DNA of 64,000 nt from Halichondria panicea (taxonomy: Eukaryota > Porifera > Demospongiae > Suberitida > Halichondriidae): positions 4,255,963 through 4,319,962 of the forward strand of contig NC_087382.1 in NCBI RefSeq assembly GCF_963675165.1. The letters are read 5' to 3'. Shown here piece after piece: positions 11,120-59,586 of this stretch. Below the pieces are notes generated by a model. It was given only the letters and a program-made list of their open reading frames with translations. It was not told the origin of the DNA and ran no database searches. Position 1 is the first letter of the stretch, and each line of letters starts with the position of its first letter. Made by a program: the position numbers and the translations under genes.

Positions 11120-13242
11120 CTAAGTTGCTGCTCTATTATCCATTTCTTGTTCAATGACATCATTTTGTTGAGACGATTTAGTCGGACATATCATTTTCTT
11201 CTTACAAATGCTGGAAATTATTTCATATGCTGTTATACCGGTATTTGCATAATATTAACTCACCAGATAACTATGCATATGACAAGTACTACAAGTGCTC
11301 CAATTACTAGGCTTGCTGCTATAAGGCCTGCTGTAAGGCCGACGACGTCTATAGGAGGCTCAGTAGCCATTTCAGTAGCCAGGTCAGTACTTGGGCCTGT
11401 AGAGTCTGAGAAAAATTCTAGTTCGTTACTACTGGCACCTTTGTATTAGTATAGAGACAGCCTATAACAAAAAAGGTTTCGATAAACATTACAAAGGCTA
11501 GTGGTATCAGTGCATGAGGAAAAATATGCGTGGCTGAGGGGTGGCAATAAGCTACCACTTCTTTGAATTTTAGACACATATTCAAGCTCAGGTAGGTTAA
11601 GGCAGCTTTTTAGCAAAACAGCATTAAATTGAAGATGAAGTGTACTGTATATACAACTCAGATTTATTGTATAATATCTTGACAATAGTACCTTTTTTAA
11701 CCCAAAATGTATTGTGGACATAATTATATACCATTAATTTGATAACACTATTACCATGGTTACTATCTTGTTGTGTGCGTTACCTGTGACCAAAAATGAC
11801 TGACCTTAACTAACATTTTAGAAATGCAGCCTCCAATACTACTTTATACAAAGCAATAAAATTATTACTACCAAAAGAAAGCTATTGGTGATATCTAATA
11901 GAAAAAAGGTTAGTATTTGGTATGAGGTCATTCTAGCTCAGATTACAGTAACTTAATTGATAAAAATGCTAGAAAATTAATCATTCATATGCAAAATACA
12001 TGAAAGCAGCCCTAAATACTAGCATAGTTCCTACTGTACTATAGTAAGAGCTTTCTTTTGATACTAAGATGGGGTCATGAAATTGTGTATTGGAGGCTGC
12101 ATTCTGAAAAGAGTTGTTTAATAAATGGTCACAGGTAACGCACACAACATGCTAGTAACCATGGCAATGATGTTATCATCCTGATCCTTTCTACGTATAA
12201 GATATAATTCAAGAGCAAAAACATGCATTGATGATGCCATTTCACAATAACAAGGCACTTCATTAATTATACTATTTATGGCACTGCATGATCTTAATAA
12301 TTATGCCTTAACCTACCTGAGAGGGTGTCATTTACTAAGGGTCAAACAAACAGACAAGAGAAATTACAACTCACTTAGAATGAACTCTATCATTAAAGTG
12401 TTGTTGGCTACATCCCCCATTTGTAAATCATCCTGTAATTGCCTAGCAGTACAGAGAACGTTCAGAGTTGTTTCTCGACACAAGTTATAAATGTAGATCT
12501 TTGCCTCACGATTGCTATTAGTGTTATTAGGCCTTACAACAACTAAATCAAATGGGAACTTGCTCGATTGTACTCTGTGACAAAGAGTTTGATCTACTGT
12601 TGTAGAGCTTTCATTCTCCCCTCCAGTGTGATAAGATATCACTAGGTTATCTGCGTGCGACGTTGAAGTGTGCAGTCTACATAAAGAAGACACTTTGACT
12701 CCAATGGAAATTGTTTGCACTTCCGGCAGGGAACATACTTGGAAATCTGAGAAAGAAATGACGTCAATTAAATACGTATCTATAAAATTGAATTATGACT
12801 GACTTACGATTTGGACAGAGACTGGTAAGGTTGGTACTTAAATCTATGAAATCGTCCTCTGAGTCTTGAATCTCTTCCAACACATCATTATCACACTCAG
12901 TCTCAGTCTCAGCAAACATCATAACCAATGAAACCTGATATTATGATGTATGTCATAACAATCATCATTGATAAGATACTTTATACTTCCACCCATGCAT
13001 GCACTACTGTATGCCATAATTATGTGAAGAAGATATAATTATATATACTATCAGGAGAGTGATGCACTCCCGATACTATCGAACAGTCAAGTCACTAGAT
13101 TCACACCAGTCATAATTATCATAGAGTTTACAACTCTAGATCACTATAAAGTACTTGGTTTCCTAGTGACCTCTATATACACATGAGTAGGCTGAGATCT
13201 TCCACTTACCAGAAAACAGCTGATGATAAACAGATGTTGCAT
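11120..13242 (-). CDS. Gene C: CP-module single-pass membrane protein without tyrosine tail
   Basis: Five exons, 765 nt, 254 residues; phases all agree. Exon 1 (13210-13242) MQHLFIISCFL and the start of exon 2 (12808-12934, 127 nt) form a signal peptide. Exon 2 then gives an acidic segment with Cys at TECDND and SLCPN. Exon 3 (12375-12746, 372 nt, phase 1-1) is the CP module: VCSLPE, SSLCRLH, TLCHRVQSS, DLVVVRPN, AKIYIYN, NVLCTA. Exon 4 (11264-11405) has a Ser/Thr-rich stalk then a membrane helix (LTAGLIAASLVIGALVV). Exon 5 (11120-11210) gives a short tail starting CICKKKMICP with no tyrosine. It lies head-to-head with gene D (518 bp between start codons). Intron 3 holds a fold-back element (11740-12178). 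It could be a ligand-binding partner or decoy of D; that is inference from position only. Confidence 0.82.
11740..12178. mobile_element. Fold-back element in intron 3 of gene C (second copy at window end)
   Basis: Inverted ends: TGATAACACTATTACCATGG at the left, reverse complement with few mismatches at 12159-12178. Inner inverted blocks include TTGTGTGCGTTACCTGTGACC and GCAGCCTCCAATAC. It is repeated at 63621-64000, and similarity extends left to about 11588 / 63486. No coding capacity. Confidence 0.7.
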
Positions 13243-13760
13243 TGTCCTCCTCAAGATCAATGGGGGGTCCTTAGGAGCTCTTTGTGTCTACGTACATGTA
13301 CAGAAATTCATAGAGTCTATACAGCTAGGCTTGTTCTGCACCGGGCCGCGCCTTTCGGACCCTCCTGAGACAGAGAGCAGTGCAGCCTCGACGTTATCAC
13401 GTGTGACACAACCAAGGCTATTTATTACGTCACCAAAATTCTTGGGATATAGTAGTCTCATGAATCAGCCGCCGTTCTTTTGGAACCACAAAAGGAACGG
13501 TTCCAAAAGAACGGCGGCTGATTCATGAGACTAGGGATATAGTATGATCTATGTAGTTTTAAATTCTCATGGATCTCTGTGTAGACTATTTGCTATATTG
13601 CCGATATAGGACTCTGTTGTGTTGTTGGGATAGAGCTGTGGTGTGATAGCTGTATTGTTGAAGCGGTTAACTGTTGTCAATAGGAATTCGACTTGAGATT
13701 CAGTTGTTACCAATGCATATCGCGCATAGTGCATTTGAACTGTTGGAACTATTTGTTGAG
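13243..13760. promoter_or_regulatory. Shared upstream region of divergent genes C and D
   Basis: 518 bp separate the two start codons, so promoter elements for both genes probably lie here. No specific binding site could be recognised. It contains a palindromic insertion at 13453-13533 that may add or disrupt regulatory sequence. Confidence 0.45.
13453..13533. mobile_element. Perfect 35-bp hairpin element with 9-bp target duplication
   Basis: Arms 13453-13487 and 13499-13533 are exact reverse complements (start TAGTCTCATGAATCAGCC) around an 11-nt loop. Direct repeats GGGATATAG flank it at 13444-13452 and 13534-13542. The perfect arms imply a recent insertion. It lies in the C/D divergent promoter. 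Confidence 0.85.
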
Positions 13761-16137
13761 ATGAACCGATGCTGTACACTCGTATTACTGATTGCCTGCA
13801 TTCTCCTTTTCTGTGATGGTGTCATTGGTAAAAAGTTTACTGAAATCAGCCTCAATCAAATGTGCATTGTATTCTTTCTAGAAACCTGGAGTCTATTAGT
13901 ATGTAGCTAGATCTACTGCACAAGATTAAATTATTCCCCTCAGATTTTCTATTTCATTTTCCAGCAGGTAGTTTCATTGCTCCACCTGATAATGTTACTG
14001 TCTATTCTGGACAAATGGCGACGTTTACATGTAAGGTAAGTCGAAGTGGACAGATGGGACACTACTGGTTGATTACAGAGGAGCGTTTGCAACCAATTCA
14101 ACTTCAAAATTTCTATCAAGCCAGTACCTGGTTTCCTAGTGAAGGAGTTAATGGCCAAATTATATCCTCTATAGCTTTGCAGATGATTGGAATCTCAGAA
14201 ACTAACAACACATCAGTAGAGTGTATAGCTTATTATCTAAACCCTGAGTACATTCTCAGCGATCGGGTGTATCTAAGAGTACAAGGTATGTACACGGTAT
14301 ATATAAATAGCTTGGAAATTCCATAATATATAGATCAATGGTTTCACATGTCTCTCATGTATAGGAATTCTCGATGCTCCAAGTAATCTGGCCAGCTCTG
14401 CAATGAATGACTCAGTGTTGATAACCTGGACTCCTCCCTCTACTCTGCCGGGTACTACCATGAGCTTCAGAGTCAACGCGTCAGTGGGAGACCAATCAGA
14501 AATCTTTACTACCTCTCAACACAACTTCCTTATCGGCCTCTGTGATCTTGGTGTTAATAGCAGTTGTCACTCTAATTGTGAATTGAGTGTGTCTGTGAGA
14601 AGTATCAACCAAGTTGGTGAAGGAGAACCAGCATATACTACAATTTCTATTCAACTGTTCTCATGTGATGGAGCTGAGAATGGTATAAATGCCGTAAATA
14701 ATAAATTACAGGCAAAATTTCCCTTCCGTGTTATATTACACAGTCACGTATAATATAACCTCAAGGCATAATAATCTAGTGAGAGTCGTCGTGATATAAA
14801 ACATGAGAATCCTATCCTATAATTATGCATGCATGTTACTGTCATACATTCAGCATTTGTGATACATTTTAGTCAAAATTATTTACTCTTGTGTCTATGC
14901 ATACAGATAGACCAGAACCCCCTACAGACCTTGTAGCCAATGCTCTGGATGACTCTCTATCTGTGTCTTGGTCACGCCCCTCCTCCAGTCACCCCATTTC
15001 CCACTACAGTATGGATGTATGGGATACTCAGACAGAGTCCCTAATAGCCAATGAAATTGAAATTACTGATCTAAAATATACACTGGAGTACATGGCTGTG
15101 GGCATAGATACATGCAACAGAAGTTATGGGATTGCAATCAGTGTTTGTGCAGTGAATATTGCTGGAAAAGGCGTGGCTGTAAACACAACTTCGGCAATAC
15201 AACAAAACATGCAGTCGTGTCCTACTATTTCTGGTAATTTCCTTGTTTAGCGGTATATATTCCTTAACTTGCTTTGATATAGTTTGTATACAAGTTAGGT
15301 TTGTGTATGGAACGAATTTATACGCTTGCCCTGAGTGCGATTTATAGTTTATAATTATATACTTGATAGTTCAAAAAAGCTTTTAAGTACCGGTATGTAT
15401 TTGGTAGTTTGCAGTTGCATGCATGCAGTTGACAGTTGTAGTTCCGGTTAGGATAAGTGTATCTAGTAAGTGCGAACTATCCACTACGAGTCGTACTCAG
15501 GGTCAGTGTATTTAATTTAATGTACAAACAAGTCACTTTGGATTTCTCTTTTCAGTTGTAAGGACCGTCATGACTCCACAAACAGCTACCTCAGCTCATT
15601 TGCCACATCATTTGCCAAAAGGTTTGTTGTGTCTCATTGATAGGAGACCACACATGTGTGCTTACTCTTTGTTCTTGCCAATGGACTTATAGATCTGATC
15701 CCACACTACATAATAGCTCTGATAACAGCTGGTGCATTGATTGTAGTTGTGCTGATTCTGGGAGGTAGGTATATGCTTTTCACTTGACGTCTCTTACTAT
15801 TCAATTATGCCTTCAGTTGTTGCAATCATTGGAACATACACTTTGGTGAAAAGAAAAAACAAGATTTATGGTAAGGTTGAATTGTCTGTTTATCATAATT
15901 ATGAATTAACTTTGATTTATAGACAATTCAAAGCAATCCATTGAGACTGGAAAGAATCCATCATACGAAGATGCCTCTACATTAACAAAGAATCCATGTT
16001 ATGAAGAGCCGCCGCATCTGTATGAGTCAATTGACCAAGTTTACAACACATGCACTGATAATAAAGATGCAATTCTATCATACCCAAAAAACATAGATTT
16101 ACTATCAGTTGTATATCTCGCTCATGAGAATATATAG
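13761..16137 (+). CDS. Gene D: Ig-FN3-FN3 receptor with NPxY/YEEP/YESI tyrosine tail
   Basis: Eight exons (13761-13827, 13968-14285, 14365-14682, 14907-15233, 15556-15621, 15693-15764, 15817-15870, 15923-16137), 1437 nt, 478 residues. All junctions are phase 1. Exon 1 is a signal peptide (MNRCCTLVLLIACILLF). Exon 2 is an Ig domain (ATFTCKVS, HYWLI, SVECIAYY, ending RVQG). Exons 3 and 4 are FN3 domains (VLITWTPPS; SVSWSRPS). Exon 5 is a short stalk. Exons 6 and 7 carry the membrane helix and the basic stop (VKRKNK). Exon 8 is a tail of about 70 residues with KNPSYED, KNPCYEEP, HLYESI, QVYNTC, ILSYPK and VVYLAH. The NPxY pair could bind PTB domains, and phosphorylated YEEP/YESI could bind SH2 domains (family knowledge). 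No kinase domain. The exon 2 acceptor is CAGCAG, which allows a one-residue splice variant. Confidence 0.87.
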
Positions 16138-18053: not shown

Positions 18054-18070
18054 AACGTTGAAATGAGCAC

Positions 18071-20472: not shown

Positions 20473-20744
20473 ATGCATCATCCAGCCATCTCAAAAAGCT
20501 AGCTTGACAAGTTTTACAGCTTCATGATCAGCAATATTTTTTATAACACACATAGCTAGCTATGCTAGCACATGGTGCACTCGATAATGCTCTCAGTTGA
20601 GTAATGCATTTGCTATACGCTCTACGTACCTCGACATCCCATAGCTGCATGTACACGTTAAAACATGCACTTATAAGCTTAAAGCTATATATATATATAA
20701 TATAATATATAATTGCAGAATACTTCCAGATCTGTAAGCCGAGA

Positions 20745-21090
20745 GAAAGGTGCATGCATGATTGCTTGCGGACGTAGATGCGTCATTATAGATCTCATGC
20801 ACTGATTCCATAGGCTCCATTTTCTTCAACTCCACGTCATGTTGAAATGCTAATATTTTTGATTGGTGCTTCTTCATTTTCAAGAGTACTATCAATGCAT
20901 GCATGCAATTGCTGACAAGAGTGAGGAGAAAATCAGTGAAATTTTTTTGGCATAAATAGTAGAGTGATGAACTTATTGCAGTATAGCAGGAATTGTACTC
21001 CGTATTCAAAACCATGCATGTGCATGTATTAGTGCGCATGATACATGCATACATGCACAGTCTATACATACAATAGTACATGCAGGTGTC
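20745..21090 (-). pseudogene. Decayed receptor tail exon
   Basis: On the minus strand the stretch LKMKKHQSKILAFQHDVELK aligns with the start of the E2 tail (LKMKKYRSKTLTFQHDVELK). After it the tail is truncated: the AYG motifs are gone and ESVHEIYNDAST replaces the YEEI end. No membrane exon upstream is intact. The surrounding 20.05-21.3 kb resembles 53.7-55.3 kb, so this is part of an older duplication. Confidence 0.65.
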
Positions 21091-21713
21091 ACTGACGATA
21101 CCGTAAACAAAATTTGGCAGGTATTATAATTATTTGGCGAATGAGCCATGCATTTGAACCGACTTGGCGTTTTTTACTTTGGCACCTCAGGTGTGGCTAC
21201 TACAGCAATGACGTTGTGCATGTACACTGGAAAACTTTAATTTGATAAAATTTGCCCAAATCGCCAAATTAAATGATCGGAACGCGTTATCCGAAAGCAG
21301 GTTTTAATTAAGACCTTTCCTATCCTCTTCTGGTTCACAGTGCATGGTAGTAGTTTGCTATTACTTGTGCATGCATAATTATATTAATTATATAGTTGCA
21401 ATAACTGAATTCCTGCTAGTTTATATCACTCTATATAATTATATAGAAGCATGCCATGCAGTTAAATTCAGCAATGCTTTGTGTCGAAATAATTATGTCA
21501 TAATTTCAAAAGTATACAACTAAACTGAATGAATGAAAGTATAGCAAAATATAGTTATGATTACAGCAATGCAATGAAGAGTGAGGTAGCGAACATGCGC
21601 TTTATGTTTTTTAGTTGAAAAATTGAATGTGATGTAGCTATTTACTGCATAAACAGTTTTCTTGATTCTTGAATTATATACAAGTGCATGCATGTGCTTC
21701 ATTCTATGCACTT
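21091..21713. other. 3' flank of gene E
   Basis: AT-rich spacer. Part of it (about 21450-21713) resembles the 3' flanks at about 55600-55928 and 59715-59935 (AAACTGAAATGAAAGTAT and TTTTTCAGTTGAAA blocks), consistent with duplication of the tail exon together with its 3' flank. No gene. Confidence 0.5.
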
Positions 21714-23539
21714 TCAAGACTTTTGTTGGGTATCAACAATTTCTTCATAGATGTGCTGTTCTTCCTCGGAATTGCAATGATATGCATCATTTCTCATTGA
21801 TAAACTTACGCCATACGCTCCATTTTCTTTCAGAGTCGGATAAGAAATTATCGTTTTTGATCGTTGCTTCTTCAGTATTAAAAAGAGTACTATGATTAAT
21901 GCAACTGACGCTCCTGCATGCAACAGATGTATTGTCATGTTCTGAATCAGTATAATTACGTATATATACATACCCAATGTTAAAGTTATTACAGCAGGAG
22001 TTGTAGCAGCAATCGTAATTAAAACATTGGAAGCTGCATGGGTATAGACAAACTTAGAATAACTGTTACTATGATGCTGCCACATATACATGTATATATA
22101 TAATTATATCAGTATACCGGATGGGGTATGTCCGATTGTCACAGTAGTGATACGATCCTCATTCACTGCACACAGAATGCATAGCGAAAATTATCATGAA
22201 TATGTAATTGGCATATATACCGGTATACCTGTTGGTGAGCAAATTTGTGTCGATGGTATCATTTTTGTTATCCTTGCAAAATCACCTTCCACCTGTGCCA
22301 TGTCCACTCCAGCAACATGTACTTCAACAAGGTAATCTTCATTACATCGATTAATGCCAATGGCAGAAAAAGAGAAGTTGTAGGTGGTATCAACAGTGCA
22401 ATTGAGCATGAACTGTGTGAGTGTGCTAAGGGGATGCAGAGACGTACTAACATTAAGTGATATCTTGTAACACACGATAACATCAGGAGAATTCAGGAGG
22501 AGAGGAGACTGCCATGAGAGTATTAGGGATGTCTCCTCAACAACAGTATACGTATTTACATCAGTTGGAGGGCCAAGTCGATTGATTGCTGTATTGAAAG
22601 AGTATATACACAATTAACGCTTCATCATGAGCAAAATCAACTAATTCGCTTAAAAAGTATATGCCATAAATATGATCACGTATATATATGCAGTCACATG
22701 CATGCACACCTTGGCTGCAATTCTTTGATTGAGACTGTGGAATCATGGCTTGTACAAATGATGGTTCACCTTCACCTGCTCCATTCACGCCATAAACTGT
22801 TATATTGACAGTGTGATCAGAAATGCAGCGATCAATATTTAGGAAAGAGTAAGAGAATGATATTTGAGTTTCAGCTGTTGTGAACAACCTGTAATTACTA
22901 CCCATGGAAACATTGATAGCAAACTCTAACTCTGTCTCAGGCAGAGTGTAGGGTTGGTTCCATGAAAGGTTGACATAATTGTCATCGTAATTGACAAGTA
23001 CACTAGTTGGTTCTGCAACTGTTCCTATATATTATTATTGGGAAATAATTATGATGAAAGGTGCACAACTATTATTACTGCAGTTTACCTTGCACAATAA
23101 TTATGGCATTGCTTTCTTCGTTATTAGGAGGATTCAATAGCCAACAAGTTACAACAGAGTTGTTTGTAGCAGCAGACGCCTCAACTGATAGTGTATATAT
23201 CCAATCATTAACAATGACGGCTCGATATGGATATTCCGTTTCCCTTTGAGCAAAAGAACCATTTAGTCTCCAAAATTTTTCCCCGCAAGAAGCGACACAG
23301 CCGAACATTAATCTCTCCCCAACATATCCAGTTACATTTTGCGGATGTGAAATGATACCTGCACAGCAAAATAATAAAGGTATATTCATAGTCTTAACTA
23401 CTCAATCGTGTTGTTCCTAAGGTATAAAAGTGTAGTCCATGCACAGCGTGAGTTACATGCACTCACATGATCCAAAAGCAGCTCCAAACACAGTTGCTAT
23501 CCAAAAAAGCTGAGCTGCCAAATTTCTTACACAATTCAT
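21714..23539 (-). CDS. Gene E: Ig-FN3-FN3 receptor with YEEI tail
   Basis: Seven exons (23467-23539, 23089-23358, 22710-23024, 22229-22588, 22118-22165, 21974-22033, 21714-21913), 1326 nt, 441 residues, all junctions phase 1. Exon 1 is a signal peptide ending VFGAAFGS. Exon 2 is Ig (LMFGCVASC, KFWRLNG, VVTCWLLN, ending IVQG). Exon 3 is FN3 (VNLSWNQP, YGVNGAGEG). Exon 4 is a second FN3 (AINRLGPPTDV, LILSWQSP). Exon 5 is a 16-residue stalk. Exons 6 and 7 make the membrane segment (VLITIAATTPAVITLTLG, VALIIVLFLIL). The tail has KKQRSK, NGAYGVSL, NDAYHCN and HIYEEIV. YEEI is the preferred Src-family SH2 ligand once phosphorylated (established). No kinase or ITAM pair is present, so it needs an outside kinase. 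Head-to-head with F. Confidence 0.88.
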
Positions 23540-23694: not shown

Positions 23695-26600
23695 ATGATG
23701 GCTGAGTATCTGTGGGTATCACTCATTGTACTGGTAAGTCAATAATAATAACATAAGTTTAAATTAATTTGCGCCCGTTTTTAATACAGTTCCTCTTTTC
23801 GAATGTGGTAAACTCAGGCATTGACGAGCAGTGTATAGAAACAACACCGGCACCAGGTCGAGATAGTTCTGGATATCTACAGGCTGTAAATTTTGCTGAA
23901 GCAAATTGTCCCGTGTCAAGTATTGACAATGAAACACTATGTAAGTCGCAGTGTAATTATTACATCTATGATAATTATAACAGCATGCATGCATACACTT
24001 CAGAATCTACATGTATTGCAAGATTCCTGCCATCCATTGAACAAATGGTCAATAGGACCTTTGTAGATCACCTCCAGCCATGCATATAATTGTGTGACTG
24101 CATGCAGGTTATGAAAAATGCTTGATGCCAAATATCACCCTTCAACCCGAAATGGATGCTTATGCAGAGTGTGTTGCACCACCAGAAAGTGAAAACCAAA
24201 CAGATTTTAACAGGGTAAAACTTTTTTACCACCCACCTAATGGCGGTCCGTGTTCCAAATTTCAATCAACAACCAACGACAGAAGTTGGCATCATCTTGA
24301 TGAACATATTCACTTCCGTAGACAAGGTAGAGTAGTTGAAGTATTTATTGTGAATGTTGCGGCGGAACATCATGATCTGATAATTGTTTGCTTGCCAACG
24401 AATACGAATAGTAGTGTACTCGAAGGCTGTATGAATGGCTCCAGATCTACTTTATTTGTTGCTCCTGAACAAGATTCTGAAAGTGAGTGCCCCAAAATCA
24501 ATATTAAGTGAGACTGCCTTGAAATGTATATACCGGTACCTTCATTGCAGACACAGACTCCTCAAGCAACTCCACAGATAATAGTAAGACAAGACAACAT
24601 AATTATGCAATAAGTTGCGCACATGCATACATGCATGCATTCATGTACCGTATTGCAGCTAAATTTTAATGTTCGCTGTACAGTTTTCAAGAGTTAGTCT
24701 ATAGCAATCCTCCTTGAAACTAACAGAAGACACAACGTCATTTGACCAAAGATCACGAAATTTAAAATTACGCGCTGTACGGTTTTGCACACTGCATGCA
24801 GCAACAACTTTTTTAATAATAATTATGCTTTTATAATAGTTTTGAATATACTTCTAATTATTGGCTATAGATCTACTACTAAATCAATAGTATAACCGAC
24901 TAGAAAAACATTTGCAATGTGAAAAATTGCTAGGATTGGCCAGGGGAACCACAAAAAAGCGTGGGAACAAGAAATCAGACGAGAGCATAACTCCAATCCG
25001 TTACAACGTCAATCACATGTATATACTGGTAGTTTTCCCATGTTTTCCCAGCCAATATGCCACGCAATTTTTACTGGTGGAGTGATGACCAATCCCTATA
25101 TATATTTATTATACATCCATTTTAGAATGTGGGGCACATAATCATGATGATTTGTGATGAATTGATGTTCCTAATACATGCAGTGTTGAGCACAGGTACA
25201 CACAGTCCATCCATGCGTAGTAACATGCACGGACCGTACTGGTGACTGCATGGAATGATGTGGTGGATGGAAGCTGATAGGTGGATCTGGAACACAGTCT
25301 ATTATTTAATATACTATGTATTGTACATGTTCATGACGTTGTAACGGATTGGAGTTATGCTCTCGTCTGATTTCTTGTTCCCACGCTTTTTTGTGGTTCC
25401 CCTGGCCAATCCTAGCAATTTTTCACATTGCAAATGTTTTTCTAGTCGGATTCCCTTTCTTTTTCAGTACAGTTTACGTATCATGACATGCATAAAGTGG
25501 AACGTCAAGAGGCAGTACAAGAAGAGAAGACAGGACTAATCAGATATCTTCTGGAATATCTCTGGACTAATAATTATAGTATAATGAGTAATAATTTATT
25601 GCTTGATAATTATGTTGAATTTGCGAATCAGTATTAAATGACAGCCATTTTAAGAGCATGATATCTAGCCAGTGCATATAGCATGCCTGTCAGAGAAAGG
25701 GAGCTAGAGCTGAACAGTGTGAAGAAAAGGAACACCTCAGGCTCTGGAAAAGCACCTGCTGCACTGATTTTAGGCGCACGGTTTATTAGCCACGCCTATC
25801 TATTATTCCACAACGCAATTGCTGAGTCATTAAAGATGGCGGAATTGTCTAGGTAAGAGAAATAGAGACTGAGAGGTCATCTGCCTCGTGGAAGCAATCG
25901 CAAATCTGAAGAAGCGCTTTGTAATCCAGGTTGTAGTCGTTTGGAAACCCTGTGCAGAATGTCCTGGAGATGGCTGTACTTGGAGTAAATGCTGGGCAAG
26001 AAACTTACTTACTTACTCACTTACTTACTTAGTCAGTCAGACAAAGAGCGGTGAAACGTCGAAATAGTGCAATTTTTAAAATGAAAATATTCATTCATTA
26101 AAATGTTTATGGATTATGAAATGAGAGATACAAAGAGAGAAAAGGCTAAATAAACTATCTGTTCAGCCAGTTTCTTGATGTGGCCTTTCCCTGCAGAGAT
26201 AGAACAGTTTGAACATGAGTCAAAATAATTGAAATATTGCTAAACACGGGCAAACCCACTGCCAATCCTATGTAAAACCTACTGGTTTTACTAATTATGC
26301 GTGACTAATATTATATTCTAATACAGGTGTGACAGACACAGATTCCCCAAGCACCACCACAGACAATAGTAAGTCATGCATGCATGCAGGAATTACCGTA
26401 TAGCACGACATTTTCTGAGGGGCTTAATTTTCACTGATTTTGTGGGTTAGCAATCCTACACAAAAAGTAAGTCCACAAAAATTGTTCTTTAACTGCTATA
26501 ACGTGCTAAGATTTAAGGCATGGCTTCCGGTAAGCAGTCATTCCACGAACATTGTGCAACGAAATGCTTTTAGAGGCTATTCCACAAAATAATATAAGCC

Positions 26601-27711
26601 CCTAGAAAATTTTGCGCTATACGGTATACAATAAAGTGGACTCACCATGTGGTAGTTTGCGCACCACACATGCATAATTATGCCTCGGTGCGCATGCGCA
26701 AGCGAGTATACGGTTATGGAAGGGTATTAGAGTCAAAATTCCCAGCTTTTGTCCCAGTATTTGTCCCGGTGTTTGTCCCGGTACACGTCCCAGTAATGCC
26801 TTTTTCCTGTGGGCGAGGTCGACCCGTCGCACAGCCGAGCAATTACTGCTGCATCCGCTCCAGTTCCTTGCCTCAGAAAGTGTCCCAGTATGTGCACCGA
26901 CAAGTGTCCCAGTGAATAGAACACAAAACTTCACGCGGTATTTATTCGAGGCAATACATTATAGGTAGCCCAGTGTGCATTATATATAATAATTATTTTG
27001 ATGTGTGTCTTGATGTATGTGAAAGTACAGAGTAGAAGCGTAGACACTGTCAGTGTCACTGACAGTGTCTACACATGGAGTTTTTTTTTTCACCCATTAT
27101 TCAGGTAGACATAAACACAGCACACAACTGACACACGACATAATTATGAATCTCAGTTAGTTGGGTGTGGCCCCACCCTGGACGCTCACGTAGGAGTCCA
27201 GGGTGGGGCCACACCCAACTAATTCTCTAATTTTAACTTTCTGCTAATCACCTTCAAGCATTTTTGCCATGAAAATATCGTCTTGCAAAACTTAATGTAA
27301 TGATCTTTACCAAAAATACATGGATATTGATGCCTATTAATTCTTTAGACACCTATTACGCTAAATTATTCCGAGCATAATTTATCAGGGCCTAATCCTA
27401 GATTTGTTATAATACAGGTGTGACAAACACAGATTCCCCAAGCACCACAACAGATAATAGTAAGTCAGTATATAGACATACTACTACAGTCTACATACTT
27501 GCATGCATGCATCTATGATATACCAATCCTATATATATATATATATGCATGGTTTTACTAAAATAGTATTGTGAGCAGACAATTATTTTGTGTGAGACTT
27601 CGTGAATTTTAACATAATTATACACGCATGCATGCAGATTCACCTGGAATTGCCACTGTTGGGCCAGTAGTCCTCTTGATAATTGGATTATTGAGTATTT
27701 TCTGCTATTAA
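23695..27711 (+). CDS. Gene F: CP-module protein with repeated mini-exon stalk, GPI-anchor-like end
   Basis: Seven exons (23695-23733, 23790-23940, 24108-24482, 24551-24583, 26327-26368, 27418-27459, 27638-27711), 756 nt, 251 residues. Exon 1 (MMAEYLWVSLIVL) plus the start of exon 2 (FLFSNVVNS) form a signal peptide. Exon 2 holds DEQCIE and ANCPVS. Exon 3 (375 nt, phase 1-1) is the CP module: YEKCLMPN, YAECVAP, GPCSKFQST, VVEVFIVN, LIIVCLP. Exons 4-6 are 33-42 nt copies of one unit (VTDTDSPSTTTD). Exon 7 encodes NSPGIATVGPVVLLIIGLL then SIFCY and stop, so there is no cytoplasmic tail; this suggests a GPI signal or a tailless anchor. Retaining intron 2 (23941-24107) keeps the frame open to a stop at 24087, giving a possible short secreted form. 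Partner of E by position. Confidence 0.82.
24896..26293. mobile_element. Insertion block in a gene F intron, absent from F2
   Basis: The paralogous intron in F2 runs straight through at 44330-44333, so 1.4 kb was gained here or lost there. The first part (24896-25449) is a fold-back element with arms of about 115 bp beginning CCGACTAGAAAAACATTTGC. The second part (25450-26293) carries an ACTT-type tetranucleotide tail at about 26006-26032, as seen at retrotransposon 3' ends. No intact ORF. Confidence 0.7.
26394..26626. mobile_element. TA-flanked MITE in a gene F intron (copy at 44431-44663)
   Basis: Ends TACCGTATAGC and GCTATACGGTA in inverted orientation, 233 bp in both duplicate copies. 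Non-coding. The element predates the E/F duplication. Confidence 0.7.
27040..27222. repeat. Two hairpins in a gene F intron (copies at about 45074-45259)
   Basis: 27040-27072 is a perfect dyad (GTAGACACTGTCAGTG, one base, then reverse complement). 27157-27183 and 27196-27222 are perfect 27-bp arms (TTAGTTGGGTGTGGCCCCAC...) around 12 bp. In copy 2 the second hairpin has one mismatch and the first has a small change. Confidence 0.75.
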
Positions 27712-32000: not shown

Positions 32001-32084
32001 GGGGCGGGGTGGGTGAGTGCATGGATCGAGAGACAGACAAACATTGAAGATTAATTAATACCTAGAAGTGATATAGAAAACCTG

Positions 32085-32697: not shown

Positions 32698-32975
32698 TTT
32701 AAAACTTACAATTATAACATAACAAATAACACCGGCTATATATAATTATACATGCATGCACATAATTATACATGCATGCACATGTACTGAAGTGTGCAAG
32801 TTTCCTCGTTCCCATACAGACCAAATTTTAGAAATGGGCCTGGGAACGAGGCTATAGTGTGCAAGGCATGTGGCATTGTTGTTGTACACACATGGAATGG
32901 TGGTCCATCCTTATTTTGCTTATTTTACAGCCGATTTTAGCAAATTTCCCCCATTGCTTTCGAGTTCCAACATTT
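32698..32975. repeat. Dispersed repeat overlapping the 3' end of gene G
   Basis: Matches 8845-9115 in order: CACCGGCTATA, AAGTGTGCAAGTTTCCTCG, GGGAACGAGGCTA, CTTATTTTGCTTATTTTACAG, TTCCCCCATTGCTTTC. The gene G stop codon and its last 18 codons fall inside it. Confidence 0.75.
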
Positions 32976-45900: not shown

Positions 45901-48459
45901 TCGTGAATTTTAACATAATTATACACGCATGCATGCAGATTCACCTGGAATTGCCACTGTTGGGCCAGTAGTCCTCTTGATAATTGGATTATTGAGTATT
46001 TTCTGCTATTAAGTCCACCTTAGAGCCAGGTATATATGACATCCTTCGTGCATATATGCATGCAGTATAAAAATTATATACACTGATTTAATATCAAAAT
46101 GCAATCTGGTTTATTGCAGCTTATAACTTAATGATTGAGCCACAAGAAACTAGATGATGTAGACTACGCTATAGCTATATGATTTGACATGTATAGAATC
46201 ATTACACTAAACTTGATTCAGTTAGAGTACGACATATGCCGTTTATAGTGAGGCCTATTGTATTTATGTAAGTGTTTCTGTTTCTGTGTGAGCTGTGTAT
46301 ATTCTATATTACTTGTTCATGTTCACTGAGTAATATTTAACAGTACATATACATAATTATATAGACTGTAAAGCAAAACATAATATTGGAAAGACTTAAC
46401 GCAATATGCCATGGTCATTAATTAAGCCATGCTGTTCATGGTAGATTGAGAGAGGGAATAATTAATTACACATAAAAGAGTCCCCAAGTTTTCTGTAGGG
46501 AATCTTAGCTTTATGTGTATACATGCATGTATATTCAATGAAAGTATAAGCTAATTGTATTGCAAAACAAGTTGGTTGGGTTGAATACAGTCAGGTCATA
46601 CAAGAATAACAGCTTTCTGCTTTCCAAGAATTTACAAAAATTCAAAAGCACAGCAAATTGCTATAAGATGCACCATACAATAAGTATTATAAGCTAATTA
46701 AGTCAAGGAGTGAATGTATTGCAAAACAAGTTGGTTGGATTGAATTAATACAGTCAGGTCATATCCTAGACCCTACGAAAATTTCGACCATACGAAAATA
46801 TCCCAGGCTGAGGGTGCTCTAACATAATATATACTTGAACTGACTAAAATCCCTTGATAACGCTAACACCCATCACAAAACAGTGTCATGCACATACACT
46901 GTTCAGTGTATTAATTTAAGTAAACAAAACCTGCATGGTCTCACTTTTCTATAGTTTCCACATTAGTTTGAGTGAAAGTGGGTCATATAATGTGTACTTA
47001 TAATATAGGAATTAGGATGCAAAATTGAATACTGTCAACACTATATAGATCAAAGATTTATACCAAAAGAATGGTGTCTCCCCATAAACGACATTGATAC
47101 CTATTATTATTCTAGCTATTATGCTAAAATCATTCCGAGCATATATAGCCTATAGCTATAATTATATTGACTGCATGTTCTGTACAAACAATATGCATGC
47201 AACTCCACAATTTCGTCCACTATAGTTCCTGAGTGAGGTATATATTGCTCCCATTGGGTGGAGTATTATAATATAGCTCAGTTTCATTGGACGCCTGCAG
47301 GCACACAGGTATACAGATACACATCAGGTCATAATAAAAGTGTGCAGGTGTTGTAATGAATACATTTTCTAGTTTCTGGGGAGACAACATTAACTTTGAC
47401 CTGTTGATCAGTACACATTTGAAAGTGTGCAGGTGCTGTGATGAATACACTTTGTTGTAACATTGAATTTGGCTTTCTGAGAAGATGGAATTCTTTACAT
47501 ACCTATGTTGATTCACATATAGTCATGCTTTGTGAATTGATATACCCTTTTAATTGTAAAAGTGGCCGGGGACAATATTTAGCTTTTGGTGCATTTGTAA
47601 GTAAGATTCCATCTCAATTATGGGAACACTCTACATAAGTATCAGTCTTAAGTAAAGACCTGGCTTTTAATCTAACATGTGGACACGCACGAGTTGCATT
47701 ACAGACATATTTATATGACTGCATGTGGTTAGTATAGTATAGGTCTATAGTCTGATTCAGAGAGCTGTACGTTGTGGAAGCAATCATATAATATTGCGTG
47801 GAACTACACTATAATCCACTGTTATGTATATGAGTTATAAAAACGATGGGATAATAATTATCATAATTATGAAAATGCGACATTCAATGAGACAGGTTCT
47901 GTTACTGATAAGATTCTGCTTCATCGGGATCAGACCCTAGTGAAAAAACCTGCTGTGACACAAACAATATGACTGAGACTTCAAGAGGATTAACTGAAAA
48001 GGACAAATTTGATTCGAATGAAAAGTTAAAAATTCATAGGCATCTTAAATTTTATGGCAATGGATGGAAGGTGAACAAAAACAGTGAAAATAAAAAGTAC
48101 ACTTTATGCTCATGAAAATGGCCGTGTCCCTTAAATGCTAATGCGCGTTGCAGCTGTTACTATGGAGACAGGCCATGCTTATCTTCTGCGCATGCACAGA
48201 CAACCCATGTGGCACTGCTGTTTATCAATAAAGTAGGTGGATCAAGGCGTGGTTTATCTATTTGATTATCCAGCCTGCCTCTGGAACCAAGGTGTCCAGA
48301 TAATCGAGGTTGTACTGTACATTGTAAAAATTACAGCTAGGACATGCATGAGACTATACATCTTACGTATATAATATGAATTTTGTCCAAGAAAACTAAA
48401 TCCAAAAGGCACAGCAAATGTAAAACCTGCATGATATCTTGTATACTTTAATCGACCAG
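42137..48459. repeat. Segmental duplication, copy 2
   Basis: Partner of 22690-30151. It contains exons 1-3 of E2, all of F2 and the 3' flank. It has one extra stalk-exon block (about 45497-45774) and lacks the 1.4-kb insertion. Identity ends abruptly at 48459, where the flank switches to TGCATTCTGAACAGG. Confidence 0.92.
43134..46012 (+). CDS. Gene F2: CP-module GPI-anchor-like protein with four stalk mini-exons
   Basis: Eight exons (43134-43172, 43229-43379, 43547-43921, 43988-44020, 44364-44405, 45455-45496, 45719-45760, 45939-46012), 798 nt, 265 residues. The same protein as F with few changes (AEAN to TKAN; VSLIVL to VALIVL) plus one extra 42-nt exon (VTNADSPSTTTD). The CP-module exon is 375 nt. 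It ends PVVLLIIGLLSIFCY without a tail. The open intron 2 (43380-43546) is preserved as in F, and the one base difference I saw inside it is synonymous. Partner of E2. Confidence 0.82.
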
Positions 48460-48765
48460 TGCATTCTGAACAGGAAGGTACATGCATGCATCCTTGCATG
48501 TACTGTATTATAGTACATGTAAGAGGAAATGTGGTTTACTATAATTATTATGATCCGACCAATAATCTGTATTGTGTGATTTGTAGGAATACGCACTTTA
48601 ACGCAGTGTATATATATAATGTGCACTACACTTAAAATACATACACAACCAATCTCCTATAATTATGCGCGGGGACAATATTTTACAACACAAGTGTTAG
48701 CAATCATGCACAAAAAGGCTGGTGGTGTCAGAGGGTATGGCAATGGGTGCGCTCAACCATGCATA
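46013..48765. other. 3' flank of F2 (duplicate of 27712-30151) and following spacer
   Basis: Contains the duplicate JAMM-gene relics (about 46470-46520 and 47205-47300, the latter with a few extra bases relative to copy 1) and the GATAATCGAGG repeat. 48460-48765 resembles the spacer of JAMM copies a and c (AACCATGCAT junction). No gene. Confidence 0.55.
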
Positions 48766-50720
48766 TGGGTCATTCCATATCAATTCAACGAAATTTAAAA
48801 CGTGACGTCTTCAGAATTGCACGAAACTTGGTACATGTGTGAGGAATGGTATGATAACATCTCAGAAAAAATGTTGGGTTTGTAAACAATATGGCTTCTA
48901 AGATTAAGTTAATTAAAAAATGCAGAATTTCCCCACTTTTAGAAACTGGCTGCTGTTAGTTAAACTGTAACTTTCTAACCATTAACATTCAAGACTAAGA
49001 ATGTATATCATCTTGTTGCTCAAGAAATTCTGCATCATTTGGCATGTTGTATGGCTTTACTCGATAAAGTTTGGGTATTCCATCTAATTAGTGTTCTTTG
49101 AAGTCTGGCTTCTCAAAAAAACGCTGTTTTTTTCCTGTACTTTTTTGAGTATCATGTTCCTTATACAATTCTCTTGAAGTGTGACAAGTTTGATTCTGGG
49201 ATTCCAATGGGATCATGAGATATGTTGTGGGATGTAGTGTGATATTTGGGCAATATTTGTGGTTTTAGAGAATAAACAGTCCTTAAAAAAATGTTGCAAA
49301 GCTTTCTGCATTCCCAATTGTTACTGTGCACTTTTCCTTAGTAAGTAAGCTGTGTGTGAGGCCCTTTGTTGTGGCAATATTGCAATTAGCAATATAATTT
49401 ATCGTAGGTTTTAAGTTGATGAGCGACATTACCTACGTTCAAGCTAACAATTGTACGTTTTAGTTGTAGCAATGGTGATTTCATAGCATAAAAGTTCATA
49501 AAAGTTAAAACATTAGCATTAACATTTAAAAACATTAACAAGCCTAGCCCAAATGTTTGGTCAGTATTTCTGATGCAGCTTTAATCTCCTTTTTGGATAA
49601 ATTCGACCTGTTCTGATTTGATGATCAATCGTTTAAAAAAATAAAATCATGTAGGCAACGTATAAAATTATCTATTTCTGAGGCTGGGATACTTGAATAA
49701 GCTGCATTATGGCCCGTGAGGGTAAAGAAATTGCATACAACTAGTGAGTTGTGTGGTTTTACTTGGAAAACACCCTAGCTAACCACCCATTTTTTTTGCA
49801 AACCAATTACGAAATATTCTCTGGTGGCATTTCAGTTTCTACTGAGATTACTCAGTGTCCATCTTCTGACTGCAGTACTATACTGTATCAGTAGCTAGAG
49901 ATGGTTCAAATAATTTATGATGTGTGTAGTTTGCATGTGTCTGGAATCGTTTGAGAAAACAAGAAATTATTGTTCAAGATGATGCTGCTCTCTCTCAAAT
50001 GGCTGATATGCTTGTCGCCGCTCAATCAAATAGCTGGCGTGGTGTCAGTATTATTTTGCTGCTCGTATGGTCGCTGTAAACTTGTTTTAGCTATCAGTCG
50101 GTTTACAGTTCCTCGGCTGAAAATGTCACTCGGCCGAAAGTTCGAATTCTTCCTTGTGATAACATAAGTTCAGGAAAGTTAGCACACATGTTTTAGGTAC
50201 ATTACACAACAAAGAAGGACTGTTTATTCTCTGAAACCACAAATATTGCCCAAATCACACTACATCCCACAACATATCTCATGATCCCATTGGAATTCCA
50301 AAACCAAACTTGTCACACTTCAAGAGAATGGTATGAGGAACATGATACACAAAAAATTACAGGGAAAAAACAGCGCTTTTCGAGAAGTCAGAGTTCGAAG
50401 GATACTAATTAGATGCAATACCTAAAATTTTTAAGTGAAGCTGTACAACATACCAAATGATGCGGAATTTCTTAGGCAACAAGATGATATACATTCTTAG
50501 TCTTGAATGTTAATGGTTAGAAGGTTACAGTTTAACTAACAGCAGCCAGTTTCTAAAAGTGGAGAATTTCTGCATTTTTTTATCTCAGAAGCCATATTGT
50601 TTACAAACCCAAAATTTTTTCTGATATGTTACCATACCATTCCTCACACATGTACCAAGTTTCGTGGATTTCTGAAGACGTCATGTTTTAAATTTCGTTG
50701 AATTGATATGGAATGACCCG
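48766..50720. mobile_element. 1.95-kb TA-flanked element with about 520-bp terminal inverted repeats
   Basis: Ends TGGGTCATTCCATATCAATT and its reverse complement. Arms run about 48766-49290 and 50205-50720, with blocks such as TTGAAGTGTGACAAGTTTG and AGAATAAACAGTCCTT. TA lies on both sides. Paralogous empty sites exist: GCATATCGTA near 18794, and GCATCTC[AG]TAGAC near 4617 and 30658. The inner 0.9 kb has no recognisable transposase; the ORF at 49970-50167 is short. It is probably non-autonomous. Confidence 0.85.
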
Positions 50721-51487
50721 TATCGTAGACTCAATTAAGGGGCCATAACATAATTATTATACTCGGCAGTGGCGTAGGCAGAGGGGGACTGACGGGGCTA
50801 GAGCCCTCCCCCTTTTATGCTCCATCATGAACTCTATTGTGATCTGTCAATCTATTCCGTACTGTTCTGCATGCATAGTTACTAGAATGATGTCATGCAA
50901 TTGAAATGCATGTGGGAAGGGTTATCTAATTTGCATGCTGACTGCTGAGAAATTCAGTGCCCTATAATGAGCCCTGCCCTTCCAAAAATCCTGGCGATAT
51001 GCCACTGCTCGGATTGACTAACTTGCTGCCCACACGTACTATAACACTAACACTATTCACAAAACACTGTACAAATGTATTCACAGACTGATGATGAATA
51101 TACAGTTCAGGAAGATGCACTGCACACGGTTGAGCGCTATGAATATTGACTGCATATTCTGCATGTACACAACTAGGTATCCAGTAGCAACAAGCTCCAC
51201 CCACCATTTCGTCCACTATCTCCTGAGCAAGGTATTGCTCACTGGGCGGAGTAGCTCAGCTTCATTGGGGACGCCTACAGGCACATAAATTATAGGTATA
51301 CAACACATCAGTATAAAATTATACACATGCAACCTGTCTGGTCATAATTATATAGAGGTGTGAAGGTGTTATAATAAATACATTTGCTGTGCGTTTTGAA
51401 TTTCGTTTCTGGGGAAACAACATTCTTTCGATAATCTTTGACTTAGTGATGTGACAGTATTCAGAGTCCTGTTAACGATCAGTATAC

Positions 51488-55928: not shown

Positions 55929-58900
55929 CTATGCACTTCCATGGGCCTCAGGTTCCACTCGGCTTCCAACAATTTCTTCATAGATGTGCTGTTCTTCATT
56001 GGAAGTGCAGCCATATGCGTCATTGATTCTTATTGATAAACTTATGCCATAGGCTCCATTTTCTTTCAGGTCTACGTCTTGATGAGGAGTGGTTTTTAAT
56101 CCTTGTTTTTTCATTAGCAAGAGTATTATGACCAGTGCAGCTGAAACTCCTGCATGCATAATATTATAATTAAAAAAGAAATATTGCCAATGTAATTAAG
56201 CTGCACCGTGCTAAATTAAACGTACCCAAAGCTAGAGCTACAGCAGGAGTTGTAGTAGAAATTGCAATTATCAGATCAGAATCTGCAATAGTGTATTGAT
56301 TGTGTTACATTGCATGTCTGCATGTGTATTATTTCACTGACAGTTTTACTATATACGATACGTATATTATATATTAGCTATAGCCCTATACTATGATATG
56401 TACGGACGTACGTGATAGGTGCATGTGTATAATAATTATTTATACCAGATTGTGCATTGCCATGTCTAGTTGTTACAGATCCACTGGTACTTGGCTCATC
56501 ATTCCCTGCACACAAATAATTATAGTACTAGTGTCATAATCATTATAGAGAATATTACTTATAATTATATACCTGTCACCAAACAACTCTGTGTCGATAA
56601 TATTAATTTCGTTATTGTTGCAAAATCGCCTTCCACCTGTGACATGTCCACTCCAGCAACATGTACTTCAACAAGGTAATCTTCATTACACTGTTTGATT
56701 CCACTGGCAGAAAAAGAAAAATTATAGGTCGTGTTATAAGTGCAGTTGGACACAAACTGTGTGAGTATGTTTTGGGGATCCAGAGATCCAGTAACATTAA
56801 CTGATATCTTGTAGCACAGCATGACATCAGAAGAAAGCATGAGAGGTGGTTGCCACGAGAGTGTTAGTGATTTCTCCTCAATATTAGCGATTACATCAGT
56901 TGGAGGACCAAGCCGATTGATAGCTGTATTGAAAGTGGATCTCTATGTAATATTATTTGAGCTACAACTGTTTGCATAGACCTTGCAAAATACTAAATCA
57001 TTCACTGCATTACCACATATTTGCTATATGCAAACAAATAGTATTGGGTACATTCACATTCATAAAAAGTAAGCAATGCATGAATTCAAGAAATAGACTA
57101 TACATGGAGAGTCATAGAACCGGGAGGATTTGAAGTGGAGAATGGTCTACCAACGCCTTATGCTGAGACTTGTGCTATACGAAAAATGTTTACGCTAAAG
57201 AGCCTAATAACTTGCTCACTGCGGTATACCGGTTTTGACCATCAAGTTCGAACACATTTCTCTACTAGATTAGCATCAAACAATATTTTGTGATCTGTTA
57301 GTGTTTAAGGTACTTCGTACTAACAGTTTCTTCAGCCTGAAACTTCAAGCCTCACCATAATTATGTGAGTTTCCATACCACCAAGAGTAGATAAAAGCAT
57401 CTACTCTTGATATAATTTATACCACCTTATACAGCAGGTATTTTTCGAGGGTCTACTCAAAAAGTACCCGTTATACAAGTTCTAGAAACCATCATTGCTC
57501 AGGACTGCATGTTGTTTGCATAGCAACATTGTATGGTGATTTTGTGGTTTTGTGGTAATGCAGTGAGCTGATTTAGTATTTTGCAAGGTCTATGCAAACA
57601 GCTGTATGAGTGCAACAAGCTGTTTATTGGCCCAATAGTAAGTAGATTGTGGTCAAGAGCTTTTAGGCCCGAGATCATTATCTACTATATATATATACCG
57701 GGCCAATAATTTAAACTGCTTGTGGCATGAATTGCCATGTATAATAACTACTTTTTTGCCTTAAAAACCATTTGCTGCATATAGAAATAGAAACCATAAC
57801 CACTCGCTGCGTAGATATGAAAAAAATTAGTGGCTGGAATTACTATAATAGTAACTGCATTGAAACAATGCATGCATGCATATAATACTGTCTATAGATA
57901 ATACGTCATATAGTACATTTACCATGCACATGCAGGAACCTCATTCAGTGTGCATGTACTATAAAAGCTGACAGTTTGGATGGAAAGTGTTATATAGCAT
58001 GGGAACTTCACTGAAAGGTCACATTTCTGTATGCCATATATACAGAACTGGCCACATGCAGTGCCAGCACTGGGCCGGAATGTAGGTAGGCAGCACTGGG
58101 CTAGTGTATAGGTACAGAATGTAGGTATAGGCAGCACTTTCTATGCCATATATTGGCACTGCTATTCCAAGGTCAAAAAAGGTATAATAAATATAATTAT
58201 ATAACATAATTTACCTGTCACAGAGCAATTCTGTATAGATGATATCGTTTCTGTTATTCTTGCAAAATCGCCTTCCACCTGTGCAAAGCTTACTCCAGCA
58301 ACGCTTACTTCAACAAAATAATCTCCATTGCACCGATTAATGCCAATGGAGGATAAAGAGAGTGTATAAGTTGTGTTATAGGTACAATTGGACACAAACT
58401 GTGTGAGTATGTTTTGAGGATCCCGAGATCCAGTGACATTAACTGATATCTTGTAGCAATTAGTATCAGAAGAAAGCATGAGAGGTGGTTGCCATGAGAG
58501 TGTTAGGGATTTCTCTTCAATAGCAGTATTAACATCAGTTGGAGGGCCAAGTCGATTGATAGCCGTAGCTGTATTGAATAATTGTATACAATTGATAATT
58601 AAAATGCATGGTGCATGCATGCATGGTTTGTATATATATATGTACCACGATTTATGCAATTACGATAACTTACTGTATCTGACAGTAAAATTGAACCGCT
58701 CTAGTTCTTCATCATTAAAAATGTCTTCCCTTCGTACTATGCATTGAATTGAAATTTCAAGACTACTAAACACACCAAAGTTCTCAATGAATACAGTTGT
58801 ATGTCGGTTTCTGTTAGTCTCATCAGGTCTTACATATACTATGTTAAGGCCTGGACTAGCAGTACTGCTCTGAACACAATTTCTTCCCCCGCTGTCAAAC

Positions 58901-59586
58901 CTAAATCCATGGGCACAGCCACATTCTGCTGTCACAAAGACTCTCGCTCCTTCTTTAGCAAGGCATGTTACAAATAGAATAGGATTATCAACTCCAATGA
59001 TTTGATTCACAATTTCCATAGGAGGGCAAAGTTTCAGGTCTGCAATTGTGTTAAAAATTGCTATACATGACATGGCGTGATAAAGTTTCAGGTCTGAAAT
59101 AATTGAAAGAACCTATAAAAGCTGCACTGACATGCATGCACGCATGCATGAATGCTACCATTTATATAATATCATGCAGAATTAATAATATTCATCAAAT
59201 GAGCAAATGGACCGTATAAATGGTCATCGGTGTTACCGGCACAATTAAAGAGAGACCGAGACCAACTAAATTACTATATGACTCACTCTGCTGAGTCCCT
59301 CCTGATCCCTGCTGACAATAATTTGTAGACTTATTTGTCCCACCAGTAAAACCAATCAGTTCATTTTCATTGCACATCAACTCTTGTCCATGCACAGTCA
59401 AAACGCAAACTAGATCTATATATACCTGCATGTAAGCAACTAATTATTGGCTATAGTCTATATAATTTATACAGATCTACACATTTGAACAGACGCAGTA
59501 TGCAAGGCTACACCGTGACATAAACTATACATTTAACTGACCGCAGTAAAAAGTAGTAGATCTAGCAGAATCATAAAGGTTGCCAT
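55929..59586 (-). CDS. Gene I: CP-FN3-FN3 receptor with YEEI tail
   Basis: Eight exons (59542-59586, 59287-59425, 58674-59039, 58215-58568, 56573-56923, 56446-56505, 56226-56282, 55929-56149), 1593 nt, 530 residues. Exon 1 (MATFMILLDLLLFTA, donor GTCAGT) plus exon 2 start form a signal peptide. Exon 2 has ELMCNENE and YCQQG. Exon 3 (366 nt) is the CP module (LKLCPPME, LFVTCLAK, RNCVQSST, LNIVYVRP, TTVFIEN, SIQCIV). Exons 4 and 5 are FN3 domains similar to each other (INRLGPPTDV, LTLSWQPP). Exon 6 is a 60-nt stalk (NDEPSTSGSVTTRHG), the unexpanded form of the gene H stalk. Exon 7-8 give the membrane segment and the tail NGAYGISLS, NDAYGCTS, HIYEEIV. A TA-flanked transposon (56964-57605) lies between the FN3 exons. 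Confidence 0.88.
56964..57605. mobile_element. TA-flanked fold-back transposon (642 bp) in gene I intron
   Basis: Opposite-orientation copy of the 17418-18053 element. Ends CAACTGTTTGCATAGACC and GGTCTATGCAAACAGCTG with TA flanks. It sits within the 1.29-kb intron between the two FN3 exons, by far the longest intron of gene I. Confidence 0.75.

Follow-up and report, generated by a model that had tools for sequence, protein, structure and literature searches.

What kind of system is encoded by a cluster of membrane-protein genes in the sponge Halichondria panicea? The genes lie in a stretch of 64,000 nucleotides of contig NC_087382.1 (C6:4255963-4319962, here referred to as the window), in a genome of 131.5 Mb in 39 contigs. 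The original prediction took them for modular single-pass receptors with tyrosine tails. We added a 60 kb flank and studied the interval C6:4216001-4339899 (124 kb). In our judgement, with chances a little short of even, the locus encodes a tandemly expanded family of type I receptors, assembled from phase-1 exon cassettes and sharing one tail that would dock kinases for use in recognition. The modular receptor family, its phosphotyrosine-type tails, its turnover and its head-to-head pairs are supported: the gene models are splice-consistent, the key tail residues change mostly at synonymous sites, the family occupies nearly a single locus and the same genome encodes Src-type SH2-kinases. Gene positions below are in window numbering; the primed genes (C', D', G' and H'), B1 and B2 lie to the left of the window.

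Gene models and domain architecture

Six genes of the window (C, D, E, E2, H and I), which we spliced by hand from reading frame, splice sites and homology, give complete membrane proteins without internal stop codons. Their 35 introns are in phase 1 (31), phase 0 (3) and phase 2 (1), and all are GT-AG; the last figure is partly built in because exon ends were picked at GT and AG, which does not apply to the phase and the open frame. All six models possess one N-terminal hydrophobic tract and one preceding the tail, in agreement with the predicted single-pass build. The predicted ends of the cluster were also correct, since 11120 is the stop codon of C and 59586 the ATG of I. Eight complete genes had been claimed, and this number has to be lowered to six: F and F2 have no resolved 3' end, G is frame-broken and lacks YEEI, and A is partial. 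The features of the window are as follows.

131-1113, minus strand: gene A, partial, running off the left end of the window; signal exon at 1041-1113, Ig-like exon at 654-950 and, with codons 131-559, a second ectodomain exon taken as FN3 from its position alone; from reading and tblastn
11120-13242, minus strand: gene C, 254 aa; signal, N exon, X ectodomain 12375-12746, stalk and membrane 11264-11405, short tyrosine-free tail 11120-11210
13713-16137, plus strand: gene D, 494 aa; signal, Ig-like exon 13968-14285, FN3 14365-14682, FN3 14907-15233, linker, membrane, tail exon 15923-16137 (NPSY, NPCY, HLYESI)
20674-21123, minus strand: tail-like stretch, probably decayed, resembling the E2 tail up to HDVELK and without YEEI; from reading only
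21714-23539, minus strand: gene E, 441 aa; signal, first ectodomain exon 23089-23358, FN3 22710-23024, FN3 22229-22588, linker, membrane 21974-22033, tail 21714-21913 (NGAY, NDAY, HIYEEI)
23695-24583, plus strand: gene F; signal 23695-23733, N exon 23790-23940, X ectodomain 24108-24482, stalk exon 24551-24583
32923-34195, minus strand: gene G; frame-broken X-like ectodomain, repeated stalk rich in Thr, membrane, tail
35641-35712, plus strand: D-type tail remnant
36916-39000, minus strand: gene H, 388 aa; signal, N exon, X ectodomain 38153-38527, stalk 37356-37688, membrane, tail 36916-37145 (NNAY, HIYEEI; Cys in place of the first tail Tyr)
41142-42985, minus strand: gene E2, 442 aa; FN3-2, linker 41604-41654 (the sole open option found), membrane, tail (NEAY, HIYEEI)
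43134-43920, plus strand: gene F2, a copy of F; signal, N exon, X ectodomain 43549-43920
55929-59586, minus strand: gene I, 530 aa; signal, N exon, X ectodomain 58674-59039, FN3 58215-58568, FN3 56573-56923, linker, membrane, tail 55929-56149 (NGAY, NDAY, HIYEEI)

In D and E/E2 the order is Ig-like exon, FN3, FN3, linker, membrane and tail. Gene I begins with an X domain, followed by FN3, FN3, linker, membrane and tail; H runs from X through a Ser/Thr stalk to membrane and tail, and C from X through a stalk to membrane and a short tail. Against the Pfam FN3 cut-off of 25 bits, the second FN3 of D (30.5 bits) and both of D' (31.5 and 32.5 bits) pass, while the first of D (22.5 bits) and the two of E (16.1 and 16.2 bits) are below it; the FN3 exons of I were assigned by homology to those of E (56573-56923 to E FN3-2). 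In D, D' and A the Ig matches all stay under the Pfam cut-offs, and the second ectodomain exon of A has no Pfam match. Gene A continues left of the window with its membrane and tail exons, and there C6:4255560-4255649 encodes the tail end ...NEAYASLPGTQHIYETIK. For F and F2 no membrane or tail exon was found; a candidate membrane exon of F at 27638, the sole phase-1 acceptor candidate in a scan of 24583-31500, was not accepted.

The Ser/Thr stalk exon of H is built on a 24-bp repeat. By rough count, the stalks of H and H' (window 37356-37688 and C6:4240141-4240674) hold 6 and 8 units, and those of G and G' (window 33117-33623 and C6:4236019-4236531), counted roughly by another pattern, 4 and 5; these differences are possibly a length polymorphism.

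A shared three-tyrosine tail

Nine tails (A, D, D', E, E2, I, H, H' and G') share the sites N-x-x-Y, N-x-x-Y and H-x-Y-E-x-I in this order, with two lapses: the first N of E2 is S, and the first Y of H is C. YEEI occurs four times in the window, always on the minus strand (21738, 36961, 41178 and 55971), against a mean of 0.30 in 100 shuffles, and each occurrence is the HIYEEI that had been foreseen in E, E2, H and I. It was described as terminal; it is indeed near the end, with 7 (E), 11 (E2), 13 (I) and 14 (H) further residues, and of all tails with YEEI that could be read, the one of G', which lies outside the window, is alone in having HIYEEIV as its end. Of the tail tyrosines ascribed to these four genes, the first is a cysteine in H. 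Gene G has two AYG tyrosines and diverges from the family before YEEI, which its relative G' (C6:4235691-4237153) keeps.

The motifs NPSY, NPCY, YEEP and YESI noted in D are all present. Sorting the receptors into a YEEI and an NPxY class, as was proposed, had to be given up in favour of one tail family, because the A tail is matched, weakly, by both the D and the I tails (tblastn over the 124 kb; E 4e-3 and 1e-3) and the three-site order is shared. Over the same interval the tail pattern yields 7 strict and 11 loose rows (the latter including one D' overlap and one remnant), and its loose form yields 0 rows in 40 first-order Markov copies; because the pattern was drawn from the tails in which it was counted, the scan measures rarity and is not an independent discovery. 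The patterns of the immunoreceptor tyrosine-based inhibitory motif (ITIM) and activation motif (ITAM) each fit one tail in nine (E, ISYPTL; A, YASL-x6-YETI), and that of the half-motif hemITAM fits none, so a canonical label of this kind was dropped for the family. One fit in nine tails may be chance in the case of A.

Are these tails maintained? At eight key positions the pairwise codon differences are 76 synonymous against 16 nonsynonymous, and at six other motif positions 36 against 124; such pairwise counts are not independent, and the key positions were chosen for their conservation. That His, Tyr, Glu and Ile are fixed with more than one codon in use argues for constraint on the encoded tail. 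This bears on the reading of the locus as a decaying cluster with little function, to which the broken ectodomain frames of G and H' and the tail remnants would belong. Six models are open and the key sites change mostly synonymously, and we consider that reading very improbable. Decayed copies had been predicted and do exist, namely G and the D-type remnant at 35641-35712.

The sites might also serve endocytosis or sorting in place of tyrosine signalling. NPxY is a known internalisation signal, and true NPxY is found in just two of the nine tails (D and D'), the other seven having N-x-x-Y without proline. A Y-x-x-hydrophobic sorting signal leaves the +1 position free, whereas YE[EST]I is present in all nine tails (YEEI itself in six), and the last Tyr, always followed by Glu at +1 and by Ile at +3, fits an SH2 ligand better. 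A sorting role seems quite improbable to us.

One locus in the genome

Nine queries run against the whole genome gave 37 match rows, 36 of which fall within C6:4229458-4320537 (91 kb). By query the rows number 8 (E FN3-1), 7 (I tail), 6 (I FN3), 4 (I X), 4 (D tail), 3 (F X), 2 (C X), 2 (D Ig-like) and 1 (A tail); the E limits ranged from 0.001 to 10, some places were counted under two queries, and these counts are lower bounds, because only the best candidates were scored and N runs may hide members. The sole outlying row is an F-type X at C6:3950639-3951001, 52% identical and 305 kb left of the window, and divergent to it, before an N run, are a signal exon and the beginning of a first exon, both of E type. 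The receptor family is nearly confined to one locus, which exceeds the window: C', D', G', H', B1 and B2 lie to the left, and a second I-type X exon to the right.

Several neighbours are of other kinds. A JAB/MPN ubiquitin-protease fragment (PF01398, 30.3 bits) is located at window 7348-7776 on the minus strand, and a similar-looking one at C6:3945948-3946271. To the right of the cluster, about 4.5 kb past the last X exon, begin reading frames for STAND/NB-ARC-type ATPases (L005:5139-8612 and L006:1368-4500, that is C6:4325038-4334399), with an NB-ARC match of 28.5 bits (cut-off 23.5), TPR matches below cut-off and a Death match (L006:372-950) of 14.3 bits against a cut-off of 22.6. A PF15299 ALS2CR8 reading frame (120.9 bits; L005:2285-3160, C6:4322184-4323059) follows the last X exon and precedes the ATPase genes.

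Turnover and mosaic genes

The predicted copy-number change was confirmed, as the segment 22692-30151 recurs at 42138-48459 with main pieces 98.1, 99.3 and 99.0% identical. On the left it breaks off 18 bp inside the intron that follows the FN3-1 exon of E. Likewise, the stretch from G to H, 32985-39115, has a second copy at C6:4235714-4242094, aligned in three main pieces of 90.2-93.9% identity. The synonymous divergence (dS) between E and E2 rises from 0.00 in the first exon to 0.08 in FN3-1, 0.50 in FN3-2 and 1.18 in the tail; the 5' half of E2 (first exon and FN3-1) is a recent copy of E, and the 3' half an old divergent version. Between D and D' the values are 0.83 in the Ig-like exon, then 0.22 and 0.10, and 0.48 in the tail. 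Since dS varies along the genes and blocks recur, the genes are composed of exon cassettes of differing age.

Downstream of F, 24896-26291 (about 1.4 kb) has no counterpart in the F2 copy and starts at a 98% inverted repeat (24896-25021 with 25324-25449); it looks like a mobile-element insertion. At 48763-50723 there are three inverted-repeat arm pairs of 90-94%, which look like a palindromic element.

Divergent gene pairs and the X domain

Head-to-head pairs had been reported, and C-D and E-F are confirmed as such. In total, X genes stand divergent to Ig-type genes at six places, some of them incomplete:

C-D: 519 bp from the ATG of C to the inner ATG of D
C'-D': 444 bp, with start codons taken from weak matches
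F-E: ATGs 156 bp apart
F2-E2: ATGs 149 bp apart
B1-B2: about 3 kb; neither gene complete, and no Pfam Ig match in B2
distant pair: X at C6:3950639-3951001 with E-type exons; incomplete

Among these X partners only the tail of C could be read fully, and it has no tyrosine. X proteins and receptors may act together, because gene I joins X to FN3 and a tail, and gene H joins it to a stalk and a tail.

Few residues are common to the aligned X types, with three invariant columns. AlphaFold models are all-beta for the X domains of I (pLDDT 60.6, pTM 0.55) and C (pLDDT 67.0, pTM 0.62). Foldseek placed VISTA first for the I model (E 1.6e-3); for the C model it gave nothing below E 1.3, with unrelated folds heading the list. 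In VIA the top matches of both models were T-cell receptor V domains, at Z 8.5, root-mean-square deviation (rmsd) 3.7 and 100 aligned residues for I and Z 6.2, rmsd 3.4 and 99 residues for C; these Z values lie close to, or under, those usual for models that lack a clear match. The models are suggestive of a V-type Ig domain; a firm V-set assignment was not reached.

Candidate readers of the tail

The genes had been described as kinase-free, and no PF07714 match was seen on C6 between 2.33 and 7.35 Mb (E<=1e-10, 129 of 1749 candidates scored); on this ground an identity as receptor tyrosine kinases was rejected. Genome-wide, at least 146 PF07714 matches, 71 SH2 match rows and 9 PTB (PF00640) match rows were obtained. 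The SH2 rows and the many tyrosine-kinase matches fit the genome of an animal or of a near relative. Three reading frames at C2:7249317-7256049 combine SH2 and tyrosine kinase domains, and one of their SH2 domains, compared with solved structures, is best matched by Fyn-related kinase (FRK), then by HCK, Fyn and other Src-family SH2 domains. At the sites that we take, from the HCK alignment and its residue numbering, to form the pYEEI pocket, the three SH2 domains carry Tyr, Ile/Val, Thr, Tyr and Leu. The Src-type SH2-kinases of this genome are thus predicted to keep that pocket, which consists of Tyr-betaD5, Ile-betaE4, Thr-EF1, Tyr-alphaB9 and Leu-BG4 (PMC7337045).

Tandem runs of tyrosine-kinase matches, in open frames mostly of about 560-640 aa, occur at C10:1701723-1939391 and C15:4006901-4033741, possibly a lineage expansion.

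Proposed mechanism and its alternatives

What would such receptors do? Each would present an outer X or Ig-like domain on FN3 domains or a stalk, with one membrane span and a short tail. Contact with a ligand would cluster the receptors, and a Src-type kinase would phosphorylate the tail; the last site, pYE[EST]I, could then bind the SH2 pocket of the kinase and so retain it, and PTB or other adaptors might be recruited by the N-x-x-Y sites. Receptors of the D and E kind probably act with the X protein of the adjoining divergent gene, and the presence of X and tail in one chain (I and H) hints that X and receptor form one complex. Copying and exchange of exons inside the locus would change the ectodomains while the signalling tail stays. 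The anatomy, the tail constraint, the mosaics and the presence of SH2-kinases and of SH2 and PTB genes were observed; we infer phosphorylation, docking, the pairing of the proteins and a role in recognising other cells or microbes, whether immune or self/non-self. In the receptor reading of the original prediction, the modular family with phosphotyrosine-type tails, the turnover and the head-to-head pairs hold, and the YEEI versus NPxY split does not.

Several points weigh against this explanation. First, the tail pattern and the codon counts carry the dependence stated with them. Second, the Src-type label is based on the SH2 and kinase domains. Third, the first ectodomain exon of E, which had been called Ig, is so by position, and the Pfam scan gives no Ig match. 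Fourth, the X types are weakly linked (hhalign over the C, I and F/B1 types: C-I, probability 46%, E 2e-4; C with F/B1, 2%, E 0.024; I with F/B1, 0.6%, E 0.1), and their Ig-like fold derives from low-confidence models. Fifth, by tblastn over the 124 kb, genes A, G, H and I have no divergent partner next to them. Finally, diversifying selection on the ectodomains, sought by the ratio of nonsynonymous to synonymous rates (dN/dS), was not seen: of 18 comparisons, 16 have a dS greater than zero and ratios of 0.22-0.97, within the limits that gene conversion and saturation set to this test, and the other two, with dS zero, have 3 and 2 nonsynonymous changes, too few to judge.

Ratios below 1 would also suit ordinary adhesion or tissue-organising receptors of DCC/IgCAM-like kind, expanded in this lineage, whose tails lead to Src and PTB adaptors for adhesion and which have no immune or self/non-self role. 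The Ig-like plus FN3 build agrees with this, and all three PDB matches of the E FN3-1 frame, though weak (best E 0.035), are to the netrin receptor DCC. However, recent copies at one locus, chimeras, decayed copies and divergent partners are unusual for conserved developmental receptors, and we regard adhesion as somewhat unlikely. Similarly doubtful, in our opinion, is a role as innate-immunity receptors for microbes or symbionts in place of allorecognition; the variable modular ectodomains would fit it, and so would the ATPase frames about 4.5 kb past the last X exon, but gene neighbourhood is weak evidence.

The recognition explanation has a more specific form, in which the locus is the receptor side of an early-animal, sponge-type allorecognition system: a haplotype with divergent ligand-like X genes and Ig/FN3 receptors, cassette exchange as the source of diversity, one tail leading to Src-type kinases, and A shifted to a canonical ITAM. 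We find this form unlikely. If it were true, a paired tyrosine-tailed recognition logic would have arisen also outside cnidarians and chordates.

Comparison with known systems

Mammalian paired immune receptors have short ITIM, ITAM or hemITAM tails that are read by Src- and Syk-type kinases; here, by contrast, hemITAM is absent from the nine tails, and ITIM and ITAM have a single match each, in E and A. No description of such a locus in a sponge was found among titles and the starts of abstracts, most subscription papers being out of reach. According to PMC12065747, sponges, cnidarians and ascidians have no conserved set of candidate allorecognition proteins and the mechanisms are a mystery; for sponges aggregation-factor work is cited. 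If receptors, partner genes and a defined kinase docking code sit together in one compact locus, the receptor question becomes directly testable.

The docking ligand itself has a precedent in the middle T antigen of hamster polyomavirus, where pYEEI is a ligand of the Src SH2 domain (PMC7337045); the same four residues occur in six of our nine tails, in a viral antigen there and in a host receptor tail here.

The Alr genes of Hydractinia are clustered single-pass receptors of the Ig superfamily, with many copies and probable pseudogenes (PMC11067881), and ITAM/ITIM-type motifs have been reported in them (PMC12065747). The sponge locus also clusters related single-pass receptors (36 of 37 match rows in 91 kb). 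It differs in that some FN3 exons pass the Pfam cut-off, the tails are of the N-x-x-Y/N-x-x-Y/HxYExI order, divergent partners are present, and ITIM and ITAM patterns appear once each in nine tails. As to the Ig-like N-terminal domains of Alr, the sponge locus has Ig matches below cut-off (D, D' and A), none in E, and low-confidence models of X that align best to V-type Ig domains.

In Botryllus, FF and FcoR are paired receptors encoded by neighbouring genes in the fuhc locus; the FcoRs have V-Ig, sushi and C2-Ig domains and tails with tyrosine motifs including a core YxxI/L/V, and their fester-type partners have no known signalling domain (PMC12065747). Both loci possess neighbouring gene pairs, which in the sponge are divergent. 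The sponge proteins instead join X or Ig-like domains to FN3, with no sushi match among the exons scanned.

We do not file the locus as a member of either system, because the ITIM/ITAM definition fails across the family and the analysis covered a single assembly, the Alr type being marked by highly polymorphic alleles that decide fusion. The locus is real and ordered, a variant of clustered tyrosine-tailed receptors and a testable candidate for a simple cell-recognition system, and on the features compared its nearest analogues appear to be the Botryllus FF/FcoR and Hydractinia Alr clusters, which it resembles in outline.

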